Below are positions 20,022 through 30,099 of a stretch of DNA of 38,160 bases, one piece after another (position 1 is the stretch's first letter; every line of letters starts with the position of its first letter). The notes under the pieces are model-generated. The model was not told where the DNA came from. It made no database searches and saw only the letters and a list, made by a program, of their open reading frames with translations. This stretch comes from Chloroflexota bacterium (GTDB lineage Bacteria > Chloroflexota > Dehalococcoidia > SZUA-161): assembly GCA_021787935.1 (NCBI GenBank), contig JAJYLC010000012.1, positions 1 through 38,160 on the forward strand. The letters are read 5' to 3'. Position numbers and translations under genes: made by a program.

Positions 20022-23000
20022 ATGAGGTCTACAGGATTGGTAGGTATAGCATTTATTCTTATTCTAGCTCTGGCCATTATCGCCCCCATCGCGTCTGTGT
20101 TTACGGAGAATGAGGCAGTGGGGCAGGTCGAAAGCTATATGGCGGTAGTCCCCAAAGTCCTGCACGCAGGGAGCCAGGAATCTATATCTCTGGCCCTTTT
20201 CAGCGGGTCAGCGCTGACCTCGGATAGGGTCGAGGTGGCTTTGCTCAAGGATGGCAACCAGGTTCTCCACGTCACCAGGCAGGTCAGCGGAAAAGGCACC
20301 ATAGATTTCAAGGTTCCCCCGACTGCGGAAGGCACTTATGTGCTCAGCGTCAAAGGGTCTGGCTTCGAGGACAAAGCCCAGGTGACCGTACAGAAAAGCT
20401 CGCTCATTTTCCTGGAGACCGATAAGCCTATTTACAAGCCGGGACAGAACATCGAGATGAGGGTGATGACCCTCGACCCTGACCTCAAGCCGGTAAGCCA
20501 GGCCGCTACCGTGGAGGTGCTGGATGCCAAGGGCATCAAAATCTTCCGCAGCGAAATCTCCACGGATGCATACGGCATGGCAACCCTGGAGCTTCCCATT
20601 TCCCAGGAACCCAACCTGGGCACGTGGAAGATAACCGCTAAATCGGCTAATGACGATACTGAGATAGATGTTGCCGTCGAGGAGTATGTGCTGCCCAAAT
20701 ATGAGGTCAAGGCTGAGCTTCCCAAGGACTGGTTCCTGGCCAGCGAGCCCATCAAGGGCAGCGTCTCAGCGGAATACAGCTTCGGCAAGCCTGTAAAAGG
20801 TGAGCTTGTCATCACCGCCGAGAGATATGTCGGCCAGTGGGAACAGTACGCTACCATCTCCAAGCCCATTGACGGGCAGACCGACTTCGAACTGCCAGCG
20901 GTGGGCTATGTCGCGGGAGTGCCTTCAGCAGGCGGCATGGGCAACGTTATGCTCGACATCGCGGTTAAGGAAAGTGAGACCGGCTATGAAGGGAACACCA
21001 GCGAGCTGTTAACAGTCTCCAGCACCCCGCTCAATATCCAGATAATCCCCGAGAGCCCGGTATTCAAGCCCGGTTTGCCTTTCAGTTTTCTTATTATCAC
21101 CGAGACGCCTGATAACGAAGGTGTAGATGCTCAAGTAGCTGTCACGGTAACTTATCTCAATGAGAAGCTCGAGGAGATAAGCAAAGATGAAAGAAATGTC
21201 GATACCACCGGCGGCAAAGCCCTGGTCGAGGTGAGTCCACCCGCGGACAGCGTAGCTCTGGCGATCGAAGCCTTCGAGCTTACGCCGATTTCGTCCCGGC
21301 CGCCAGCCCAGGCTTCCAAGATGGTGGAAGCTGGCTACTCTCCCTCGGGCAACTTCATCCACGTGGAGCAGGTGAGCCAGGGCACGCCCAAGATAGGGCA
21401 GCAGATCATGTTCAAGGTCTACTCTACCAGCGAGGCTGCCAATTTCTACTACGAGGTCGTAGCCCGCGATAGGGTAGTCTTCACCGATTTTACGCAGAGC
21501 AACATAATAACCTTCGATACCACCCCTCTCATGACACCCTCCGCCAAGCTGCTGGTCTATCAAATCCTGCCCAACAGCGAGGTGGCAGCAGATTACCTGC
21601 CCTTCGCCGTCGAAGCAGTATATCCCAATGATGTGAATGTGGAGTTCAATCAGACCCAGGCTAAGCCTGGAGACCAGATCCAGATAAATATCCAGTCCCA
21701 GGGCCAGTCTGAGATCGGCCTCACGGCGGTGGACAAGTCGGTCTTTATCCTCGCCGGAAACAGGCTCAATCTACAGCAGGTATTCGATGAGCTGGAGAAG
21801 TTGTATATGGAGCCGCAGGCTGAGCTGCACGAGGTCTCCATCTATAATGGTATCAATGTCCAGGGCACCAAGGACATCTTTGATGACGCCGGCGTGGTGG
21901 TGTTGACCAACAACAACATCCCGAAAGGCGAGAAGTATCAGTTGGAGTGGGGGCCGCGAGCCTGGGAAGGCGCCTGGAAGTTTATGGGTCAGGGCCCTGT
22001 CGGTGGAAATGGAGTTGTGCTGGCGCCAAACGCCGTGGGATCACATGGATTTTCGGCTTCAGGATTCAGTCCTGAAGAGCTTGCCCAGGTCCAGCGGGTA
22101 AGGCAGTATTTCCCTGAAACCTGGCTCTGGCAGAATGTCATCACCGACGCTAGTGGAAAAGCAACTCTGGATGTCACCGTGCCCGACACCATAACCACCT
22201 GGATGCTGCGTGCCGTTGCCCTGTCCAAAGAAAACGGCCTGGGTGTCGCCGAAAGCCAACTCATAGCGTTCCAGCCGTTCTTCCTCAGCGCCGACCTGCC
22301 ATACTCGGCGATAAGGGGCGAGCAATTCCCGGTCAAAGTAGCTATATACAACTATCTCGACCAGCCGCAGAACGTTGTGGTGCAAATCGATAACGCCGAC
22401 TGGTTCGACCTGCTTGACCAGTCCCAGAAGACGGTGGAGATAGCTCCCAACGATGTCGGCGGCGTCGAGTTTAACATAAAGCCAACGCAGTTAGGAGTCG
22501 GGCAATTGAAGATTACCGCCAGGAGCAGCCAGGCTGCTGATGCCGTAGTCAAGACGCTGATAGTCGAGCCTGAAGGAGTCGCCAGAGAGGATGTGCAGAA
22601 TCTGGTACTCTCCGCTGGTAACAGCACGGTGGTAAATACCAATATTCCTGCTTTAGTGGTCGACGGCTCGGGCAGAGCTTACATCGCAGTAACCTCCAGC
22701 TATTTGACACAGACCATAGATGGTCTGGACGCGCTCATTCAGATGCCCTTCGGCTGCGGCGAGCAGAACATGATTCTGTTTGCCCCCGACGTTTACATCA
22801 CCAAGTATCTTAAGGAATCGGGCCAACTCAAGCCCGAGATCATGGCCAAAGCGGAAAAGCTGATGATTACCGGCTACCAGAGAGAGCTTACTTATCAGCG
22901 CAGCGACGGCAGCTTCTCCGCATTCGGGGACAATGATGAGCAGGGCAGCCTGTTTCTCACCGCTTTTGTGCTTAAGTGCTTCTCCCAGGCCAAAAGCCTG

Positions 23001-24212
23001 GTCTATATTGATGACAGTGTTCTATCTCAAGCCGAGAAGTGGATAATCAACCATCAGAACGCTGACGGCTCTTTCGACCCGTTTGGCTTTGTTGCCCATC
23101 AGGATATGATGGGCGGGCTCAAAGGTAAAACCGCACTCACCGCCTATGTCGCTATAGCATTGCTTGAGGCTGGTGATAAGGCGGACGCTTCCAGAGCCAT
23201 TAGTTACCTGGAAGGCCAGCTTAACAACATAAATGACGCCTACACCATGGCGATTACGGACTATGCCCTGGAGCTCGGCGGAAGCGCACTCAGCGGACAG
23301 GCCCACATTAAACTGATGGAGATGGCGCAGGAGGACGAGAATGGCCTGCACTGGGGCAACGTTACAGAGATTGAACCTCTGAATCAAGCAGGCGGCGCCA
23401 TGATGCCGTTCCGCCCTATGGAGATGAACAGGAGCAACGCCATTGAGGCTACAGGCTACGCCACCCTGGCTTTGCTCAAAAATGGCGATGCCTTCGATGC
23501 CTCCCGCGCTGCCAAGTGGCTGGTCTCGCAGCGCAACGCCTACGGCGGCTACGGCTCGACCCAGGATACTGTGGTGGCTCTCCAGGCGCTGACCGAGTAC
23601 TCCACTAACGCCAGGGCTGATGTCGACCTGACCGTGGCCATAAACGCCGGTAGCCAGACAAAGCAGCTCAGGATTACTCAGGACAACTTCGATGTTCTCC
23701 AGACGGTGGAGGTGCCTCTGAATCAGGATATTACCATAAGCACGGCGGGCAGGGGTGATGCCATTGCCCAGATTGTCGAGAGATACAACCTGCCCCAGGC
23801 CGAGCAGCAAAGTGACCAGATATTGAAGATAAACGTTGGCTATGATACCGACCAGGTCGAGGTGAATGACCTGGTCAAGGTCTCGGTAGACCTAACATAT
23901 AACCCGCCGATAGACATGAAGGCTGAGATGGTAGTGCTTGACGTCTCAGTTCCCACCGGCTTCTCTCCGGTTACCGAATCCATAGACAAAGTAATTGCGG
24001 GCAATGACAGCATCAAGCGGTATGACATTGCGGGAAGGAAGGTCATCTTCTACATCGAGGACATGCAGCCGGGCGCTAAAATATCGTTCAGCTTCGATGT
24101 GAAGGCGCTGTACCCGGTCACGGCCAAAGGTGTTACGTCACAGGCCTATTCCTATTACAACCCAGACATCAAAGCCGAGACCTTGAGCCAGGGCATTGTA
24201 GTCACCCAGTAG
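20022..24212 (+). CDS. Alpha-2-macroglobulin family thioester protein
   Basis: A 1396-residue exported protein that would trap proteases through an internal thioester. One N-terminal hydrophobic segment (residues 6-27) acts as signal peptide or membrane anchor. Macroglobulin MG domains follow (for example LETDKPIYKPGQNIEMRV near 130 and VEEYVLPKYEVKAELPKDW near 220). Then come the A2M block FPETWLWQNVITDASGKATL with VPDTITTWM (about 695-735) and the thioester motif GCGEQN with Cys912 and Gln915. An alpha/alpha-toroid with repeated DGSF motifs and a receptor-binding-like C-terminal domain complete it. The layout resembles animal TEP/CD109 proteins more than the E. coli type (CLEQ). AGGAGG precedes the ATG. 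No pbpC-like gene is adjacent. The stop TAG lies in a REP-like GTAG. Confidence 0.93.
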   Translation: MRSTGLVGIAFILILALAIIAPIASVFTENEAVGQVESYMAVVPKVLHAGSQESISLALFSGSALTSDRVEVALLKDGNQVLHVTRQVSGKGTIDFKVPPTAEGTYVLSVKGSGFEDKAQVTVQKSSLIFLETDKPIYKPGQNIEMRVMTLDPDLKPVSQAATVEVLDAKGIKIFRSEISTDAYGMATLELPISQEPNLGTWKITAKSANDDTEIDVAVEEYVLPKYEVKAELPKDWFLASEPIKGSVSAEYSFGKPVKGELVITAERYVGQWEQYATISKPIDGQTDFELPAVGYVAGVPSAGGMGNVMLDIAVKESETGYEGNTSELLTVSSTPLNIQIIPESPVFKPGLPFSFLIITETPDNEGVDAQVAVTVTYLNEKLEEISKDERNVDTTGGKALVEVSPPADSVALAIEAFELTPISSRPPAQASKMVEAGYSPSGNFIHVEQVSQGTPKIGQQIMFKVYSTSEAANFYYEVVARDRVVFTDFTQSNIITFDTTPLMTPSAKLLVYQILPNSEVAADYLPFAVEAVYPNDVNVEFNQTQAKPGDQIQINIQSQGQSEIGLTAVDKSVFILAGNRLNLQQVFDELEKLYMEPQAELHEVSIYNGINVQGTKDIFDDAGVVVLTNNNIPKGEKYQLEWGPRAWEGAWKFMGQGPVGGNGVVLAPNAVGSHGFSASGFSPEELAQVQRVRQYFPETWLWQNVITDASGKATLDVTVPDTITTWMLRAVALSKENGLGVAESQLIAFQPFFLSADLPYSAIRGEQFPVKVAIYNYLDQPQNVVVQIDNADWFDLLDQSQKTVEIAPNDVGGVEFNIKPTQLGVGQLKITARSSQAADAVVKTLIVEPEGVAREDVQNLVLSAGNSTVVNTNIPALVVDGSGRAYIAVTSSYLTQTIDGLDALIQMPFGCGEQNMILFAPDVYITKYLKESGQLKPEIMAKAEKLMITGYQRELTYQRSDGSFSAFGDNDEQGSLFLTAFVLKCFSQAKSLVYIDDSVLSQAEKWIINHQNADGSFDPFGFVAHQDMMGGLKGKTALTAYVAIALLEAGDKADASRAISYLEGQLNNINDAYTMAITDYALELGGSALSGQAHIKLMEMAQEDENGLHWGNVTEIEPLNQAGGAMMPFRPMEMNRSNAIEATGYATLALLKNGDAFDASRAAKWLVSQRNAYGGYGSTQDTVVALQALTEYSTNARADVDLTVAINAGSQTKQLRITQDNFDVLQTVEVPLNQDITISTAGRGDAIAQIVERYNLPQAEQQSDQILKINVGYDTDQVEVNDLVKVSVDLTYNPPIDMKAEMVVLDVSVPTGFSPVTESIDKVIAGNDSIKRYDIAGRKVIFYIEDMQPGAKISFSFDVKALYPVTAKGVTSQAYSYYNPDIKAETLSQGIVVTQ

Positions 24213-24231: not shown

Positions 24232-24269
24232 AATTCCCCCTTGGCATGACAATCCGCTAAACACGACCC

Positions 24270-24324
24270 AAAATGTCACAATTTTTTAAGCTTTCCCTCT
24301 CTTCTTTTATAACTTCTTGATGTC
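24270..24324 (+). promoter_or_regulatory. Shared 55-bp upstream box, copy A
   Basis: An A+T-rich block running from AAAATGTCAC through AATTTTTTAAGC, TTTCCCTCTC and TATAACTTC. Without gaps it matches copy B (28453-28507) at 40 of 55 positions. It lies 154 bases before the ferritin-like gene. Its nature (operator, UP-like element or repeat relic) is unknown. Confidence 0.45.
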
Positions 24325-24478
24325 TTTACGAATAACATGCTTAGTACAGCCGCAGCATCTGGCTTTCCACGTGCGTGAGAGAATGGCCGTGAAATGGAAC
24401 CAGGAGGGGCAGTATGATTTAGGCTTATGGAGGGCTATCGCTGCCGGACCGGGGGCACATCAATAAAGGAGGTAACGG

Positions 24479-24916
24479 ATGAATACAAAGGAGTTACAGG
24501 AACAGATCATCTCGGACATGAAGCAATGGCAGAAAGCTGAGAACGCGTCGGTGGCGTCAACAGGTCGCATCATCGAGAAGACGAAAAACCCTGTGGTACG
24601 CCTGGTTATGGAGATCATTCAACGGGACTCCAAGATGCATTATCAGGTGCAAGGTTTCATTGCCGATAGCCTCGGAGAAAAGACGGTTAGCTTGACTCCC
24701 GAGGAGTTGGCCCAGGTCTGGGAAATGATCGAGCAGCATATACAACTGGAGAAAAAGATGATAGAAGCTGCTGGACAGCTACTAGCCTCCTTAAAGGGCA
24801 AGCACATGGTTATACAACAATATCTGATAGATTACCTGTTAGAAGATGAGACTAAACACAACAACCTGCTGGACCGATTGAGTGGGATCAAAACGAAGAT
24901 GTATCCTTATGGCTGA
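24479..24916 (+). CDS. Ferritin-like four-helix protein
   Basis: A 145-residue all-alpha protein with the spacing of a ferritin-like diiron bundle. Candidate ligands are Glu21 (QKAENAS) in helix 1, Asp-x-x-His (RDSKMHY, about 50-53) in helix 2, Glu in IQLEKKMIEAA in helix 3 and Glu-x-x-His (LEDETKHNN) in helix 4. This resembles rubrerythrin-type domains without the rubredoxin tail, so iron binding or peroxide handling is plausible but not shown. The use of Asp rather than Glu in helix 2 is unusual. The Shine-Dalgarno AAGGAGGT is near perfect. It shares an upstream box with the lipoprotein and rubrerythrin genes, which hints at common control. Confidence 0.65.
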   Translation: MNTKELQEQIISDMKQWQKAENASVASTGRIIEKTKNPVVRLVMEIIQRDSKMHYQVQGFIADSLGEKTVSLTPEELAQVWEMIEQHIQLEKKMIEAAGQLLASLKGKHMVIQQYLIDYLLEDETKHNNLLDRLSGIKTKMYPYG

Positions 24917-25242
24917 TGATTAAGTGTAAAAATGACATTAGTCAGATCAGGATAAAGCATCCCGAGGTCGCCTGCCAGCGTTCCACATATCTTAATTCAA
25001 AAATTGTTCCCATTCGTAGGGTCACAACGTGCTGTGCCAAAAACCGTGGGGTGTGCAGGCGAAAATCCTGACCTTTTCAACGTTTTCCCTCTCGCTTTTT
25101 TGACTTTGTCATGGTGGATGTGAAACAATATGCGGAGTGGTGATATATTAAATAGAAAGTGGTTAATGAAAAAAAGACGGTAACAGTGTGTTTGTGTCTT
25201 CTGGTCGGCCGCCCCGAGTATTGTTTAGAAAAGGAGAGATAA
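24917..25242. other. 326-bp gene-free region with shared box copy C
   Basis: Contains copy C of the upstream box (25062-25114), an A+T-rich stretch around 25140-25180 likely to hold the lipoprotein promoter, and the Shine-Dalgarno AAGGAGAG before ATG 25243. TCGCCTGC near 24967 and GCAGGCGA near 25055 form an 8-bp inverted repeat about 80 bases apart. No ORF or RNA gene is recognisable. Confidence 0.4.
25062..25114 (+). promoter_or_regulatory. Shared upstream box, copy C (weaker)
   Basis: Begins AAAATCCTGACC and contains TTTTCCCTCTCGC and TTTTTTGACTTTG. The first 32 positions match copy A at 21 places, including an identical 10-base TTTCCCTCTC at the same offset; the end is shifted by one base. 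It lies 128 bases before the lipoprotein gene. Confidence 0.35.
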
Positions 25243-25680
25243 ATGAAACGAAGGTCTATCCGCTGGTATATCTTACCACTTTTCATCCTGCTGGTGCTCG
25301 TCTTGTTTTTTTCCGCATCCTGCCTCGGATCTCAGAGCAAACCGGTCAGCGCCTTCTATGACTCAGGAGCCAACGATCTCATCATGACCGGTACTCAGTT
25401 CGGCCAGTACGTACTGTTCCGCTTTGACACCAGTGCTTCGGAGCATATACTGACCACGCCGAGTGCGGCAGATATCGTTTCTCGTTTCTCGTCCCCGGTT
25501 GTGGGCTCGGTGTCTGTTTTGGCGGTGACAGCGGATGGGAGTAATATCGTTACACTCAAGGGTGGCGCGAATGTTATTGTTAAGCCCAGCGCCTCGACGG
25601 TTGCCGGAAACACCACGCTTACGTTATTCTGCGAGCTCGACAACGTGACCAAGGGCAGCGAAGCCGTGACTTTTTATTAG
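25243..25680 (+). CDS. Putative lipoprotein of unknown function
   Basis: A 145-residue exported protein. The N-terminus MKRRSIRWY is basic, followed by a hydrophobic core and a lipobox-like FSASC at residues 23-27, so Cys27 would be lipidated and the protein anchored outside the cell membrane. The mature part is rich in Ser, Thr, Val and Gly with alternating beta-like strands, suggesting a small beta-sandwich; no known domain is recognised. AAGGAGAG precedes the ATG. The isochorismatase-fold gene follows after 57 bases and may be cotranscribed, although no functional link is evident. Confidence 0.7.
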   Translation: MKRRSIRWYILPLFILLVLVLFFSASCLGSQSKPVSAFYDSGANDLIMTGTQFGQYVLFRFDTSASEHILTTPSAADIVSRFSSPVVGSVSVLAVTADGSNIVTLKGGANVIVKPSASTVAGNTTLTLFCELDNVTKGSEAVTFY

Positions 25681-25737
25681 CCGGTGCCGAGGGGAGCAGC
25701 CGAGGAATAAGCTGTATGTAAGTGGAGGAGGAAGGGA

Positions 25738-26367
25738 ATGAAAACACTGGGTAAACTGACGATTTTTGAGAATCTTAAAGAAATCGCTAATCCGGAATAT
25801 ACAGCGCTCGTTCTCTGGGACTGCCAGAACGCGCTGGTCGACCACATCTTCGATAAGGAAGAGTTTCTGGCTAACCTCAAAGCGCTTCTTACCGCCGCCC
25901 GCCGCCGTAAAATCCCTGTAATCTATACCAAAATCACGCCGCTGCCCACTGGCTACCAGTCCGGCTGGGGCATCTACCAGGCCATGAAACGCTTCGGTAT
26001 AGACGACCCCTCTAAAATCCCCGTTTTCATGAAGCCGGGCAGTCCCGAAGCCGAAATTGCCGCTCCTCTGGCGCCAGCCGACGGCGAGGTAGTTATCAAC
26101 AAGCATTCGCCCAGCATCTTTTTTGGCACCAATTTCGAGCAACTGATGCGCTTCCGCGGCGTACAGACTATTCTCTTTACGGGCATCGCCACTGAGTACG
26201 GCGTCGAGCATAGCGCCCGCGAAGCCGCCATCCGCGGCTTCTACACTGTTGTAGTCTCCGACTGCGCCTCCTCGACCGACAAAACAGCGCACGAGATGGC
26301 ACTCAAGATACTGCCGCGCATGTGCCTGGTGCAGTCCTCGAAGGATATTATGAAAGAATGGGCTTAA
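25738..26367 (+). CDS. Isochorismatase-fold hydrolase lacking the catalytic Cys
   Basis: A 209-residue protein with the isochorismatase-like fold. The catalytic Asp is Asp28 in LWDCQNALVD and the lysine is Lys122 in INKHSPSIFFG. The third residue, normally Cys in nicotinamidase and other cysteine hydrolases of this fold, is Gly155 (ATEYGVEHSARE). True isochorismatases such as EntB also have Gly at the nucleophile position, so a non-thiol reaction is possible. The substrate is unknown; no siderophore, menaquinone or phenazine genes are nearby. GGAGG and GGAAGGG precede the ATG. It converges on cvpA. Confidence 0.85.
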   Translation: MKTLGKLTIFENLKEIANPEYTALVLWDCQNALVDHIFDKEEFLANLKALLTAARRRKIPVIYTKITPLPTGYQSGWGIYQAMKRFGIDDPSKIPVFMKPGSPEAEIAAPLAPADGEVVINKHSPSIFFGTNFEQLMRFRGVQTILFTGIATEYGVEHSAREAAIRGFYTVVVSDCASSTDKTAHEMALKILPRMCLVQSSKDIMKEWA

Positions 26368-26436
26368 TATAATAGCCTCTTGACCCGGTTCACAGGACGG
26401 TCAAAGCGCGGCTTTCAAGATATCTTTGCTTTCCTG

Positions 26437-26922
26437 TCATTTTTGGAAAAACTGTTTGACGTGGTCGAAACTTCCGGGAAGGAAAGAAAGCGCCAGTGGA
26501 AATTTCTCCACCAGGAAAGCAGCGACTACGGAACCGGATATCGGGGATACTCCGATTGAGTGATTGAGCAGTATAGATAGAATAGCGCCGGCGATGAACC
26601 CGCCCAGCAGCGCACCCAGAACGAATCCGGCCAGGTGATTCAACCAGTCGAGCAGTACCAGTTTCAGGAAACGGTGCACTATCATTGTTACAATAAAAGC
26701 AGCTATCATAAAAAGGATGACGATCACCACAAACGCAGCTATATAAGCGGCGGTGGAGTGCCCGTGGAAGCCATGGGCCAGGCCGGTATAGTAGCGTCCT
26801 GCTACCACGATGCCGGCAATCAGACCGATGATAGGAATAAGGGTGCTTATCAGGCCGCGCATGAGCCCCCAGATTGCCATTATAAGTAAGAAAATACCTA
26901 GCACGACATCAAGCCAGTTCAT
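26437..26922 (-). CDS. cvpA: CvpA family membrane protein
   Basis: A 161-residue protein with four membrane segments (about 5-21, 27-44, 60-84 and 98-121) and the CvpA/colicin V production pattern: N-terminal NWLDVVLGIFLLIMAIWGLMRG, then a central segment ending in a basic loop, and GFVLGALLGGFIAGAIL. The molecular role of CvpA is unresolved; roles in envelope stress and biofilm formation are reported. GGGAGG lies about ten bases before the ATG, with GAGG directly at it. It is divergent from the glycosyltransferase and converges on the isochorismatase-fold gene. Confidence 0.85.
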   Translation of the reverse strand: MNWLDVVLGIFLLIMAIWGLMRGLISTLIPIIGLIAGIVVAGRYYTGLAHGFHGHSTAAYIAAFVVIVILFMIAAFIVTMIVHRFLKLVLLDWLNHLAGFVLGALLGGFIAGAILSILLNHSIGVSPISGSVVAAFLVEKFPLALSFLPGSFDHVKQFFQK

Positions 26923-27118
26923 CCTCTGAAGACCTCCCTTCTCATAAATACCTCTATGTCAATATAATATTGTGCCAAGGTTAACAGACCCGCGGTGTAA
27001 AAGTCATAAAATCCAGAGCAATAATATTAAAAATATCTTACATTTAGCAGTTGGATTTACACCTTTCTCGGCTATCTCAGCGCCTTCTGTGGTGGACTGC
27101 CTCAGAAAAAGCTTTGCC

Positions 27119-27147
27119 TTGACAAACGTCCTGCTATCGCATATAAA
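27119..27147 (+). promoter_or_regulatory. Consensus promoter giving a leaderless glycosyltransferase mRNA
   Basis: Perfect TTGACA (27119-27124), a 17-bp spacer and TATAAA (27142-27147). Only eight bases separate the -10 box from ATG 27156, so the transcript should begin within about two bases of the start codon. Confidence 0.75.
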
Positions 27148-27155
27148 GGCCTTAA

Positions 27156-28391
27156 ATGAAGATTTGCCTCCTGACCTACAGGGGAAATATGTATTGCGGC
27201 GGGCAGGGGGTCTATATATGCTATCTGGCCGGAGCGCTCCAGGAGCTGGGGCATGAAGTCCATATAGTATCAGGCCCGCCATATCCCACACCCCCTGAAG
27301 GCGTCAAGCTGCACAAACTGCCGGGACTCAACCTGTACGAGACCAGCAGCCTCTCCTCGCTGTCGAGCCCTCTTCAGGCCTTGACGCCGCTCAATCTCTA
27401 TGAAATTGCTGCGGTGCATATCGGGTTCTTCCCCGATATATTCACCTTCAGCATGAGGGCTTACTTCAAGCTGCGCGACCTCATGTCCCAGGAAAGGTTT
27501 GACGTCATTCACGATAACCAGACCCTGGGCTACGGCCTGCTCTTGATGAAAAGCCTCGGCGTGCCTATTGTCGCTACCATACATCATCCCATCACTGTCG
27601 ACCTCGCAGCCTCCCTGGCCCAAGCCGATACCTTCAGGCGCGGCGTCAGATGGGCCATGTTCTATTCCTTCCTCAACATGCAGGGCATTGTCAGCAGGCG
27701 CATGGCAAGGGTGATCACTGTCTCCCAGTCCTCGGCTGAAGACACTGCCCGCGCCTTCAAATTGCGCAAAGACAGGGTCAGGGTTGTCTATAACGGCATT
27801 GATACCGACATGTTCAGGCGGCTCGACGGCGTCGGGAAAGAGCCCAACAGCCTGGTCGTAGTGGGTAAAGTCGAGGATAAGACCAAGGGGATTCCATACC
27901 TGCTGGAGGCGGTTAAACTGCTGAAAGGCGACGTTGATGTTAAACTCTACGTCGTGGGCAAGCAGGAAGCCAGCGAGGGTTATGGCACGAACCTGGCGCA
28001 GCAGCTCGGCATCTCTGACAGAATCACCTTCACCGGCTATGTCAGCACGGAGGAGCTGGTCAGGCTCTACTCCTCTTCAGAGATAGGGGTTACGTCCTCT
28101 GTCTACGAAGGTTTCGGATTGCCTGCGGCAGAAGCGATGTCATGCGGAACTCCTGTCATAGCTACCAGAGCGGGGGCATTGCCTGAGATAGTAGGCGACG
28201 GTGCAGCCGGGATTCTGGTGCCGCCTGCAGACCCGCAGGCGCTGGCAGCAGCGATAAAACGACTTCTGGCAGATAAGCTGCTGAAGCAGAAGATGGGGCA
28301 GGCAGCCCGGAAGAGGATCGAGGACTTCTTTAGCTGGCAGGCGGCAGCCCGGAAGACCGTTGAGGTCTACCGCGAACTTATGTATCCCTAG
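27156..28391 (+). CDS. Glycosyltransferase family 4 protein
   Basis: A 411-residue GT-B fold retaining glycosyltransferase. The N-terminal domain starts MKICLLTYRGNMYCGGQGVYICYLAGALQ, with the Gly-rich loop near residue 15. The C-terminal nucleotide-sugar domain includes VVGKVEDKTKGIPYLLEA, then YEGFGLPAAEAMSCGTPVIA (about 311-330) with the E-x7-E motif and GILVPPADPQALA. It probably transfers a sugar from a nucleotide donor to a lipid or cell-surface acceptor, in the cytosol or at the inner membrane face. It is a lone gene with its own strong promoter and almost no leader. Confidence 0.92.
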   Translation: MKICLLTYRGNMYCGGQGVYICYLAGALQELGHEVHIVSGPPYPTPPEGVKLHKLPGLNLYETSSLSSLSSPLQALTPLNLYEIAAVHIGFFPDIFTFSMRAYFKLRDLMSQERFDVIHDNQTLGYGLLLMKSLGVPIVATIHHPITVDLAASLAQADTFRRGVRWAMFYSFLNMQGIVSRRMARVITVSQSSAEDTARAFKLRKDRVRVVYNGIDTDMFRRLDGVGKEPNSLVVVGKVEDKTKGIPYLLEAVKLLKGDVDVKLYVVGKQEASEGYGTNLAQQLGISDRITFTGYVSTEELVRLYSSSEIGVTSSVYEGFGLPAAEAMSCGTPVIATRAGALPEIVGDGAAGILVPPADPQALAAAIKRLLADKLLKQKMGQAARKRIEDFFSWQAAARKTVEVYRELMYP

Positions 28392-28452
28392 GTTTGTGTT
28401 TGGTTCCAGATACGTCATTGAGCTTCTACTCAGCCAATTTAACAATTACCCC

Positions 28453-28507
28453 AAAATGTGATAACTTTTTAACCTTTCCTCGCCTCATGTTATGACTTCG
28501 TTATCTC
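28453..28507 (+). promoter_or_regulatory. Shared 55-bp upstream box, copy B
   Basis: Begins AAAATGTGATAAC, continues TTTTTAACCTTTCC and ends TTATGACTTCGTTATCTC. It matches copy A (24270-24324) at 40 of 55 positions without gaps. It ends 55 bases before the rubrerythrin ATG, so the A+T-rich tail (CATAAT, TACAAT) between them probably contains the -10 element. Confidence 0.5.
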
Positions 28508-28562
28508 CCATATATATCATAATATTTGATACAATAAAATTGTGATTAAAGGAGGTTGAAGC

Positions 28563-29111
28563 ATGCACGACATTACATCGGCCAATCTGCATAACGCCTA
28601 TGGTGGTGAGTCTATGGCTCACATGCGCTACGGGACCTGGGGCGATAAGGCAGAGAAGGATGGTTTCCCCAATACTGCGCGTCTGTTCAGAGCGATTACC
28701 TTTGCCGAAAAGATTCACGCCAACAATCACTTCAGGGAGTTGAAGAATTTGGTGGGCGGCTTTGTCTGTAACTCTGCGGCTGTCTTCGGAATTGGTCCCA
28801 CGTCGCAGAATCTGCAGGGAGGTATTGACGGCGAGACTTACGAGATCAACGAGATGTATCCCACCTTTCTGGAGACAGCGAAGTTCCAGGGTGAGAAGGG
28901 CGCCGAGCGGAGCTTCTTCTATGCACTGTCCTCCGAGAAAACCCATGCTGCCTTCTTCCAGAAAGCAAAGTCGGCTGTCGACTCAGGCAAGGATGTACAG
29001 TTGGGACCTATGCAGATATGCACTGTGTGCGGCTGGACTTATGAAGGCGAGGCCCCTGACGTATGCCCTATATGCGGGGCCAAAAAAGACAAGTTCCGCA
29101 CTTTCGCTTGA
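28563..29111 (+). CDS. rbr: Rubrerythrin
   Basis: A 182-residue peroxide-scavenging protein of anaerobes. The ferritin-like diiron domain (about 1-140) carries ligands in GGESMAHMRY, FAEKIHANNHF, EINEMYPTF and SSEKTHAAFF. A C-terminal rubredoxin domain follows with CTVCGW (about 157-162) and CPICGAKKDKFRTF (about 170 onward), the four Cys binding one iron. It would reduce hydrogen peroxide using electrons from rubredoxin or related carriers. AAAGGAGG lies seven bases upstream of the ATG. It heads a unit with the glutaredoxin-like and FTR-rubredoxin genes. Confidence 0.95.
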   Translation: MHDITSANLHNAYGGESMAHMRYGTWGDKAEKDGFPNTARLFRAITFAEKIHANNHFRELKNLVGGFVCNSAAVFGIGPTSQNLQGGIDGETYEINEMYPTFLETAKFQGEKGAERSFFYALSSEKTHAAFFQKAKSAVDSGKDVQLGPMQICTVCGWTYEGEAPDVCPICGAKKDKFRTFA

Positions 29112-29153: not shown

Positions 29154-29456
29154 ATGAAACTTGAAAAGTATGCCAAGAAGGTGCCTGGCAAGAGAAAAGG
29201 CGACATACTTCTGTTCGCGCTGAGCACCTGCGGGTGGTGCCGCAAGACGAAGAATTTGCTTGATACCCTCGGCGTAGGGTATAGATACATAGACGTTGAC
29301 CTGCTGGACGGCGAGGCAAGAAATGAAGTGATGGCGGAGCTTGACCGCTGGAACAAGGCGCATTCTTTCCCATCAGTAGTGATAGACGATGATAGGTGCA
29401 TAGTCGGCTTTCAGGAGGACAAGATCACGCAGGCGGTAGGCGGTGGAAAGAACTGA
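29154..29456 (+). CDS. Glutaredoxin/NrdH-like thiol-disulfide protein
   Basis: A 100-residue thioredoxin-fold protein with active-site [10 protein letters not shown] (Cys26, Cys29). Strand and helix order fits the glutaredoxin/NrdH group: DILLFAL before the motif, [11 protein letters not shown] after it and FPSVVIDD with the cis-Pro. It would exchange disulfides in the cytosol. The next gene, a ferredoxin:thioredoxin-reductase-type protein, overlaps its end by 14 bases, so the FTR-like protein is the likely electron donor. It begins 42 bases after rubrerythrin. Confidence 0.88.
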
Positions 29457-30099
29457 GGTCGGCGACAAAGCGGTAGATGCCCTCTACCAGCGGCTGAACC
29501 GGGAAGCCGAAGAAGGTGGGTATCACCTTAACCCTGATGTGGGTTTCACCAAAGACCTTGTCAGAAGCCTGCTGGTTAACGAAAAACGCTATGGCTACTG
29601 GGCCTGCCCCTGCCGTCTCGCCTCGGGCGTTAAGGAAGATGACCTTGACATAATATGTCCCTGCGACTACAGGGATGCCGATGTAGACGAGTATGGAGGA
29701 TGCTACTGCGCGCTCTATGTATCCACTGAGGTATTAGAGGGTAAAAAAGTAGCTGGTCCGATACCCGAGCGGCGGCCTCCGGAGCAGGAAAGGAAGAGGC
29801 TGAAAGAAGAGGCCTCGAAGCTAAAAGCTAAGGGCGCAGCACAGCCTGTTTCACTGCCCGTTTGGCGCTGCACGGTATGCGGATACCTGTGTGCCAGAGA
29901 CGGGCCGTCTGAAATCTGCCCCGTATGCAAGGCGAAAAAGGACAGGTTCGAAAAATTCATAGACGTGGGGGCCGCATTTTCTGTTACGGTGCCTGTGTGG
30001 CACTGCAGGGTGTGCGGCTATCTCTGCGCACGGAACGAGCCTCCCGAGGTCTGCCCGATATGCAAAGCGAAAAAGGACCGGTTCGAAAGATTCTTGTAG
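29443..30099 (+). CDS. Ferredoxin:thioredoxin reductase catalytic domain fused to two rubredoxins
   Basis: A 218-residue fusion. Residues 1-100 form the FTR catalytic (FtrB-type) domain with three Cys pairs: CPC (55, 57), CPC (72, 74) and CYC (87, 89). The last is CHC in plant-type FTR, so the His near the cluster is Tyr here. A charged linker (105-138) leads to two nearly identical 34-residue rubredoxin modules (139-172 and 184-217; Cys 143/146/159/162 and 188/191/204/207) sharing 26 of 34 residues, a recent duplication. The rubredoxins could feed electrons to the [4Fe-4S] centre that reduces the upstream glutaredoxin-like protein. It starts at GTG 29443, overlapping that gene. The TAG stop lies in a REP-like GTAG. 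Confidence 0.87.

Follow-up and report, generated by a model that had tools for sequence, protein, structure and literature searches.

A tandem-operator promoter class and a candidate two-component general stress regulon in Dehalococcoidia

In the Dehalococcoidia, a class of two-component promoters with double operators appears to act as a general stress regulon. The window analysed here, a stretch of 38,160 nt from the genome of an uncultured member of this class (G000; 2.68 Mb in 169 contigs), carries copies of a 54-bp box that belongs to a family of about 65 sites genome-wide, well beyond the copies reported before, and that consists of two copies of the 18-bp operator ATKTNAYRAYTTYTTNAY, set 31 bp apart, that is, three helical turns. 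It is likely that an OmpR-family response regulator of the type encoded on contig C146, together with its kinase, switches on these roughly 65 sigma-70-type promoters and that they form a general stress regulon. In the literature searched, no description of a general stress regulon of Dehalococcoidia, this one included, was found.

Box copies and promoter anatomy

The preliminary description of the window had noted that two intergenic copies match at 40 of 55 positions, and this is borne out by a gap-free pairwise match of 74% over 58 nt (24267-24324 against 28450-28507), which far exceeds chance (Table 1). A third copy had been placed at 25062-25114; a weak match is indeed present there, but it is limited to model positions 15-54, the first half-site is absent, no TANNNT follows at the expected distance, and the copy is marginal. 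The copies described before lie on the plus strand; an additional one, overlooked previously, lies on the minus strand.

Table 1. Positions of boxes, associated elements and genes in the window and on other contigs of the same genome.
Feature	Sequence	Position	Strand	Remarks
1396-aa ORF	window	20022-24212		immediately upstream of the 24268 box
Box copy 1	window	24268-24321	+	profile 48.0 bits, E 2.6e-12 (24269-24321); copy itself in profile
Half-sites of copy 1	window	24274-24279, 24285-24290, 24305-24310, 24316-24321	+	register of the 54-position model
-10 element TAACAT of copy 1	window	24333-24338	+	fixed TANNNT position, 10-13 nt past box
145-aa gene under copy 1	window	24479-24916	+	ORF; start 157 nt past box, strong ribosome-binding site
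Weak copy	window	25059-25112	+	16 bits, E 0.026
Lipoprotein-like gene past weak copy	window	25243-25680	+	ORF
CvpA/Colicin_V-type membrane protein gene under copy 3	window	26437-26922	-	PF02674, E 6.4e-19
-10 element TAACCT of copy 3	window	26978-26983	-	TANNNT position
Box copy 3	window	26995-27048	-	27.3 bits, E 7.5e-6; outside profile
Box copy 2	window	28451-28504	+	profile 54.6 bits, E 2.2e-14 (28452-28504); copy itself in profile
Half-sites of copy 2	window	28457-28462, 28468-28473, 28488-28493, 28499-28504	+	54-position model
-10 element TATCAT of copy 2	window	28515-28520	+	fixed TANNNT position
Rubrerythrin gene under copy 2	window	28563-29111	+	PF02915, E 1.8e-22; RUBY_RBDX
Glutaredoxin-like gene	window	29154-29456		comes after rubrerythrin gene
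127-nt direct repeat	window	29832-30093		two copies, 74% identical, in or near ORF 29443-30099
Candidate OmpR-family response regulator	C146	61124-61819		PF00072 + PF00486
Crp/FNR-family regulator gene	C146	L296:1001-1699	-	after divergent kinase
OmpR-family regulator	C26	L128:14-688		degenerate receiver
OmpR-family regulator	C47	L133:1495-2187	-	degenerate receiver
Box before rpoB-like gene	C43	L105:663-712		33.5 bits; 248 nt before gene
Stand-alone receiver-domain protein	C96	L111:1706-2077		weak box (23.3 bits) before gene
Box beside two-component system	C59	7748		drives divergent NfeD gene

BLAST searches of the genome with either main copy returned more than 20 further places each. A sequence-only profile (R1) was built from 37 copies in register, which share AAATGTSAYRAYTTYTTAACNTTT-N9-ATTTTATRACTTCTTNAY, and, run against the 2.68 Mb, found 68 places with E<=1e-3; scores drop steeply below this threshold. 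Exact matches to the pattern among named genomes all fell in Dehalococcoidia or Chloroflexi MAGs.

The frequency profile of 64 sites contains two conserved blocks, and the box is described as ATKTNAYRAYTTYTTNAY in tandem, at a distance of three helical turns, because the autocorrelation of this profile has a single dominant peak at lag 31 (0.223, elsewhere at most 0.087). The motif T-N-A-Y occurs at model positions 9 and 20 and again at 40 and 51, in steps of 11 bp, with the key T and A present in 87-100% of sites, and each operator may be seen as a head-to-tail pair of YKTNAY half-sites in the 11-bp spacing to which dimers of OmpR-family response regulators bind. This is a reading and not a measurement, as within a single operator lag 8 gives a higher autocorrelation (0.087) than lag 11 (0.046).

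Outside the box the information is close to zero, with the exception of a TANNNT 10-13 nt downstream. The box model leaves out this -10 element, and, counted on sites outside the model, TANNNT is found at this place in 26 of 27 sites of the genome itself and in 75 of 78 sites of relatives (101/105 in total), against about 2 and about 5, respectively, in control windows; a sigma-70-type -10 element is thus present at a fixed position. The sequence 17-18 bp before it, ATRACT, lies inside the downstream operator and matches the -35 consensus TTGACA poorly, as expected for an activator-dependent promoter. The combination of tandem operators with a TANNNT at fixed distance in nearly every site identifies the box as a promoter class, not the relic of a mobile repeat. 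An RNA element was also set aside, since a box upstream of the -10 element should not be transcribed.

Genes downstream of the boxes

The sites lie in intergenic gaps, and the start codon of a co-oriented gene follows after 37-412 nt (median 82); where genes diverge, four box pairs are arranged back to back. Genes were called by script, and the first genes, of which about 60 were scanned, were assigned by Pfam. Among their products are two rubrerythrins, PMSR (MsrA), hemerythrin, Rieske, ferredoxin, flavin reductase and two pyridine nucleotide-disulphide oxidoreductases, one of them a thioredoxin reductase by sequence, and there are also two cupredoxins, a cytochrome b5-like and a PNPOx-like protein, a cation ATPase, three glyoxalase or 3-dmu-9 proteins, two YCII proteins, LUD and BON. 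Further products are two Usp proteins, HSP20, a LonC-type protease, a ClpP-like SDH protease, PrsW and Ku, and the remainder includes RpiB, ribulose-phosphate epimerase, a phosphoribosyltransferase, DUF488 and CvpA.

Box-headed units, in which the gene stands first or second and whose membership was assigned from coordinates, contain five of the eight rubrerythrin-family genes genome-wide, three of the six glyoxalase genes and two of the seven Usp genes. For these 10 of 21 redox, detoxification and USP-family genes the binomial p is ~2e-8 at an assumed, generous background of 5%, the gene-class background frequencies coming from these three family searches only. The preliminary description had proposed a regulatory site of an oxidative-stress or iron regulon, to be checked by a motif scan and a test for enrichment; the stress part is supported by the fixed -10 element and by this enrichment before redox and detoxification genes, but an iron regulon is rejected, the target list being broader than iron. 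The term 'general stress' suits the targets better because they include proteases, Hsp20, Ku and USPs.

In the window itself, the gene name rubrerythrin was confirmed by Pfam, and in the relative G008 a rubrerythrin gene carries a box at the same place. The name ferritin-like, given to the 145-aa product under copy 1, found no backing, as this protein matches no Pfam or NCBIfam family; the gene called a lipoprotein is a plus-strand open reading frame, but its product has no family match in either collection. The rubrerythrin gene and the glutaredoxin-like gene that comes after it may constitute one stress unit; a homologue of the latter in G005 has a box of its own (L179). Elsewhere in the genome, the box before an rpoB-like gene on contig C43 would link RNA polymerase supply to the regulon, and the weak box before the gene for a stand-alone receiver-domain protein on C96, which is related to the receiver of the C146 regulator, represents possible feedback.

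Among 294 genomes sampled from the class Dehalococcoidia, boxes were found in 32, densely in the family of the window's genome (f1) and patchily elsewhere, the counts per genome being lower bounds (19 candidates scored in each). Box-bearing genomes are drafts or MAGs and most are split into many contigs, although G008, which is 70% complete, consists of a single one. By sequence, the first genes in these relatives encode rubrerythrin- and ferritin-like proteins, thioredoxin reductase, Hsp20, glutaredoxin-like, Fe-SOD-like and DegP-like proteins and PfpI. For six genes with counterparts in other genera, identity is 59-87% in the box and 13-38% in the 60 bp preceding it.

A candidate regulator and its kinase

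OmpR-family regulators, of which the window's genome encodes nine, were examined because the operators suggested this family. Among relatives with the box, one regulator type repeatedly adjoined a box, and its representative on contig C146 is most likely the regulator of the box, as judged from the comparisons that follow. Its orthologues form a clean group of 63-96% identity, the next group being at most 50% identical, and a profile (A3) built from ten of them gave at least 366 bits for orthologues and at most 312 for all other proteins in the 294 genomes. An orthologue is present in 30 genomes. Regulator and box occur together in 27, the regulator only in 3, the box only in 5 and neither in 259 (Fisher 6.5e-30), a class-wide comparison that covers the C146 type as the one regulator family. 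To allow for relatedness among the genomes, labels were also shuffled within families, and the permutation p was 3.5e-5. Two of the three regulator-only genomes have weak boxes adjoining the regulator and the third, G068, is without a detected box; the genomes with boxes and without a detected orthologue (G005, G101, G114, G209 and G214) are all drafts, as is G068. Of the 30 orthologue loci, 25 have a box immediately 3' of the regulator gene, where it usually precedes a DJ-1/PfpI gene, and five have no adjacent box. In some genomes the box adjoining the regulator is the sole one among those listed.

The C146 regulator combines a receiver domain (PF00072; 115.5 bits, cut-off 30.2) with a C-terminal winged helix (PF00486, Trans_reg_C; 64.2 bits, cut-off 26.2), residues D10, D11, D54 and K103 are invariant in the ten orthologues, and the protein gives full-length matches to the structures of MtrA, PrrA, RegX3, KdpE and PhoP. 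The best-scoring named family was RpaB (NF045944), with 214.4 bits against a cut-off of 330, and the scores for YycF (NF040534; 194.5 against 340) and PhoB (TIGR02154; 174.5 against 296.2) were likewise below threshold. On sequence grounds it belongs to the OmpR/PhoB family and to none of the RpaB, YycF and PhoB equivalogs tested.

A histidine kinase gene is divergent to the regulator in most loci, though not at every one, and in G000, G291, G124 and G012 the divergent gene encodes both HisKA and HATPase_c, as a partner kinase should. The output half (HisKA, HATPase_c) is constant and the sensor half varies among lineages: MASE3 and PAS in G000, GAF and PAS in G291, MEDS and PAS in G124, PAS in G012 and, for the one stretch covered in G003, GAF and PAS. 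A Crp/FNR-family regulator gene comes after the divergent kinase in the window's genome and also in G001 (L297). A further two-component system, on contig C59, also adjoins a box. The OmpR-family regulators of C26 and C47, with PhoB-like recognition helices (RTVD[VI]HIRRLRSKIED), had been the first candidates and were dropped; only the C146 type adjoined boxes in genome after genome.

A different DNA-binding protein might nevertheless read the box as a regulon operator, the C146 type being merely a conserved neighbour of a DJ-1/PfpI target. Except in G062, the box adjoining the regulator gene precedes the PfpI gene and not the regulator itself, five genomes have boxes without a C146-type orthologue, and there are eight other OmpR-family regulators in the genome, two of them combining degenerate receivers with recognition helices of PhoB type. 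We nonetheless regard this as unlikely, given that the C146 type tracks the box over the 294 genomes and within families, that in some genomes the only box listed is the one beside it, and that G006, a member of the same family without boxes, has two OmpR-family regulators only, neither of the C146 type. Still less probable is that an alternative sigma factor uses the box as its promoter, with the conserved blocks acting as an extended -35; conserved block B does occupy the -35 position with a fixed -10 after it, but this -10 is of the ordinary TANNAT type, and conservation extends about 60 bp upstream of it, with a second 18-bp copy three helical turns off, neither of which a sigma factor needs. 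Many alike copies dispersed in intergenic gaps could recall a small mobile element or dispersed repeat, a possibility raised in the preliminary description, but relics of this kind are scarcely credible where conservation ends sharply outside the box and its -10, orientation and distance to the gene are constrained, no terminal repeats accompany the operator repeat, the box is retained at the same genes in other genera with diverged flanks, and neither ends nor flanks were found to be conserved irrespective of where genes start.

Proposed mechanism and relation to known systems

Under regulation by the C146 type, a stress signal would cause the divergently encoded kinase to phosphorylate the regulator, and two regulator dimers would then occupy each box, one per ATKTNAYRAYTTYTTNAY operator and on the same helix face. 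With the downstream operator covering the -35 region and the TANNAT -10 element following it, the downstream dimer would recruit RNA polymerase where the -35 itself is poor, so that about 65 promoters would be turned on together, supplying peroxide and aldehyde detoxification, metal handling, proteases, a chaperone and USPs. The stress signal, phosphorylation, binding and activation rather than repression are inferred from the box anatomy and from how PhoB-type regulators work.

In the pho box of PhoB, half-sites of the TGTCA type form 11-bp direct repeats, the proximal operator lies at -35, and PhoB aids sigma-70 polymerase at a poor -35. The present box is similar in half-site type, in the 11-bp step (here a reading), in the proximal operator at -35 and in the poor -35, but its two operators have a fixed 31-bp spacing and its targets lack recognised phosphate genes; no Pst/Pho-type family was found among the approximately 60 first genes scanned by Pfam. 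The SigB-type general stress regulons of Bacillales comprise chaperone, protease and redox or detoxification genes as well as general stress protein 18/DJ-1. These target classes are similar to those found here, but the box regulon is likely to be a two-component one at sigma-70-type promoters and not one of an alternative sigma factor.

WalR/YycF operators have the form TGT(A/T)A(A/T/C)-N5-TGT(A/T)A(A/T/C), that is, TGTWAH-N5-TGTWAH (PMC5405149). They share with the box direct-repeat hexamers separated by 5 bp (an 11-bp step, which here is a reading), a very similar half-site and an OmpR-family regulator, and differ in that the box has two operators, spaced by 31 bp and held at a constant distance from the -10, and targets stress genes, not cell-wall genes. 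In cyanobacteria, RpaB and its HLR1 element likewise pair one OmpR-family regulator with a direct-repeat element at many stress-induced promoters; the HLR1 examples are 16-bp elements (PMC6331805), in contrast to the 54-bp double-operator box. RpaB is a repressor at high-light-inducible genes (PMC6331805), and the box promoters might be repressed in the same manner.

A broader proposal, which we consider evenly balanced, is that one two-component system, and no alternative sigma factor, would run the general stress response of Dehalococcoidia, the regulator and double operators being kept, the kinase sensors (MASE3, GAF, MEDS, PAS) differing by lineage, and the regulon having expanded, in the window's genus, to about 65 boxes from roughly one that adjoined the regulator. 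The genomes with one box and those with dozens would offer a natural series for regulon growth, and a locus that stays the same while the kinase sensor varies would illustrate input swapping. Members of the Dehalococcoidia are common in sediments and groundwater, and nearly all of them are uncultured; a promoter code of 54 bp, combined with the likely regulator, may allow stress genes to be predicted in uncultured genomes, including those for unknown proteins such as the 145-aa product in the window.
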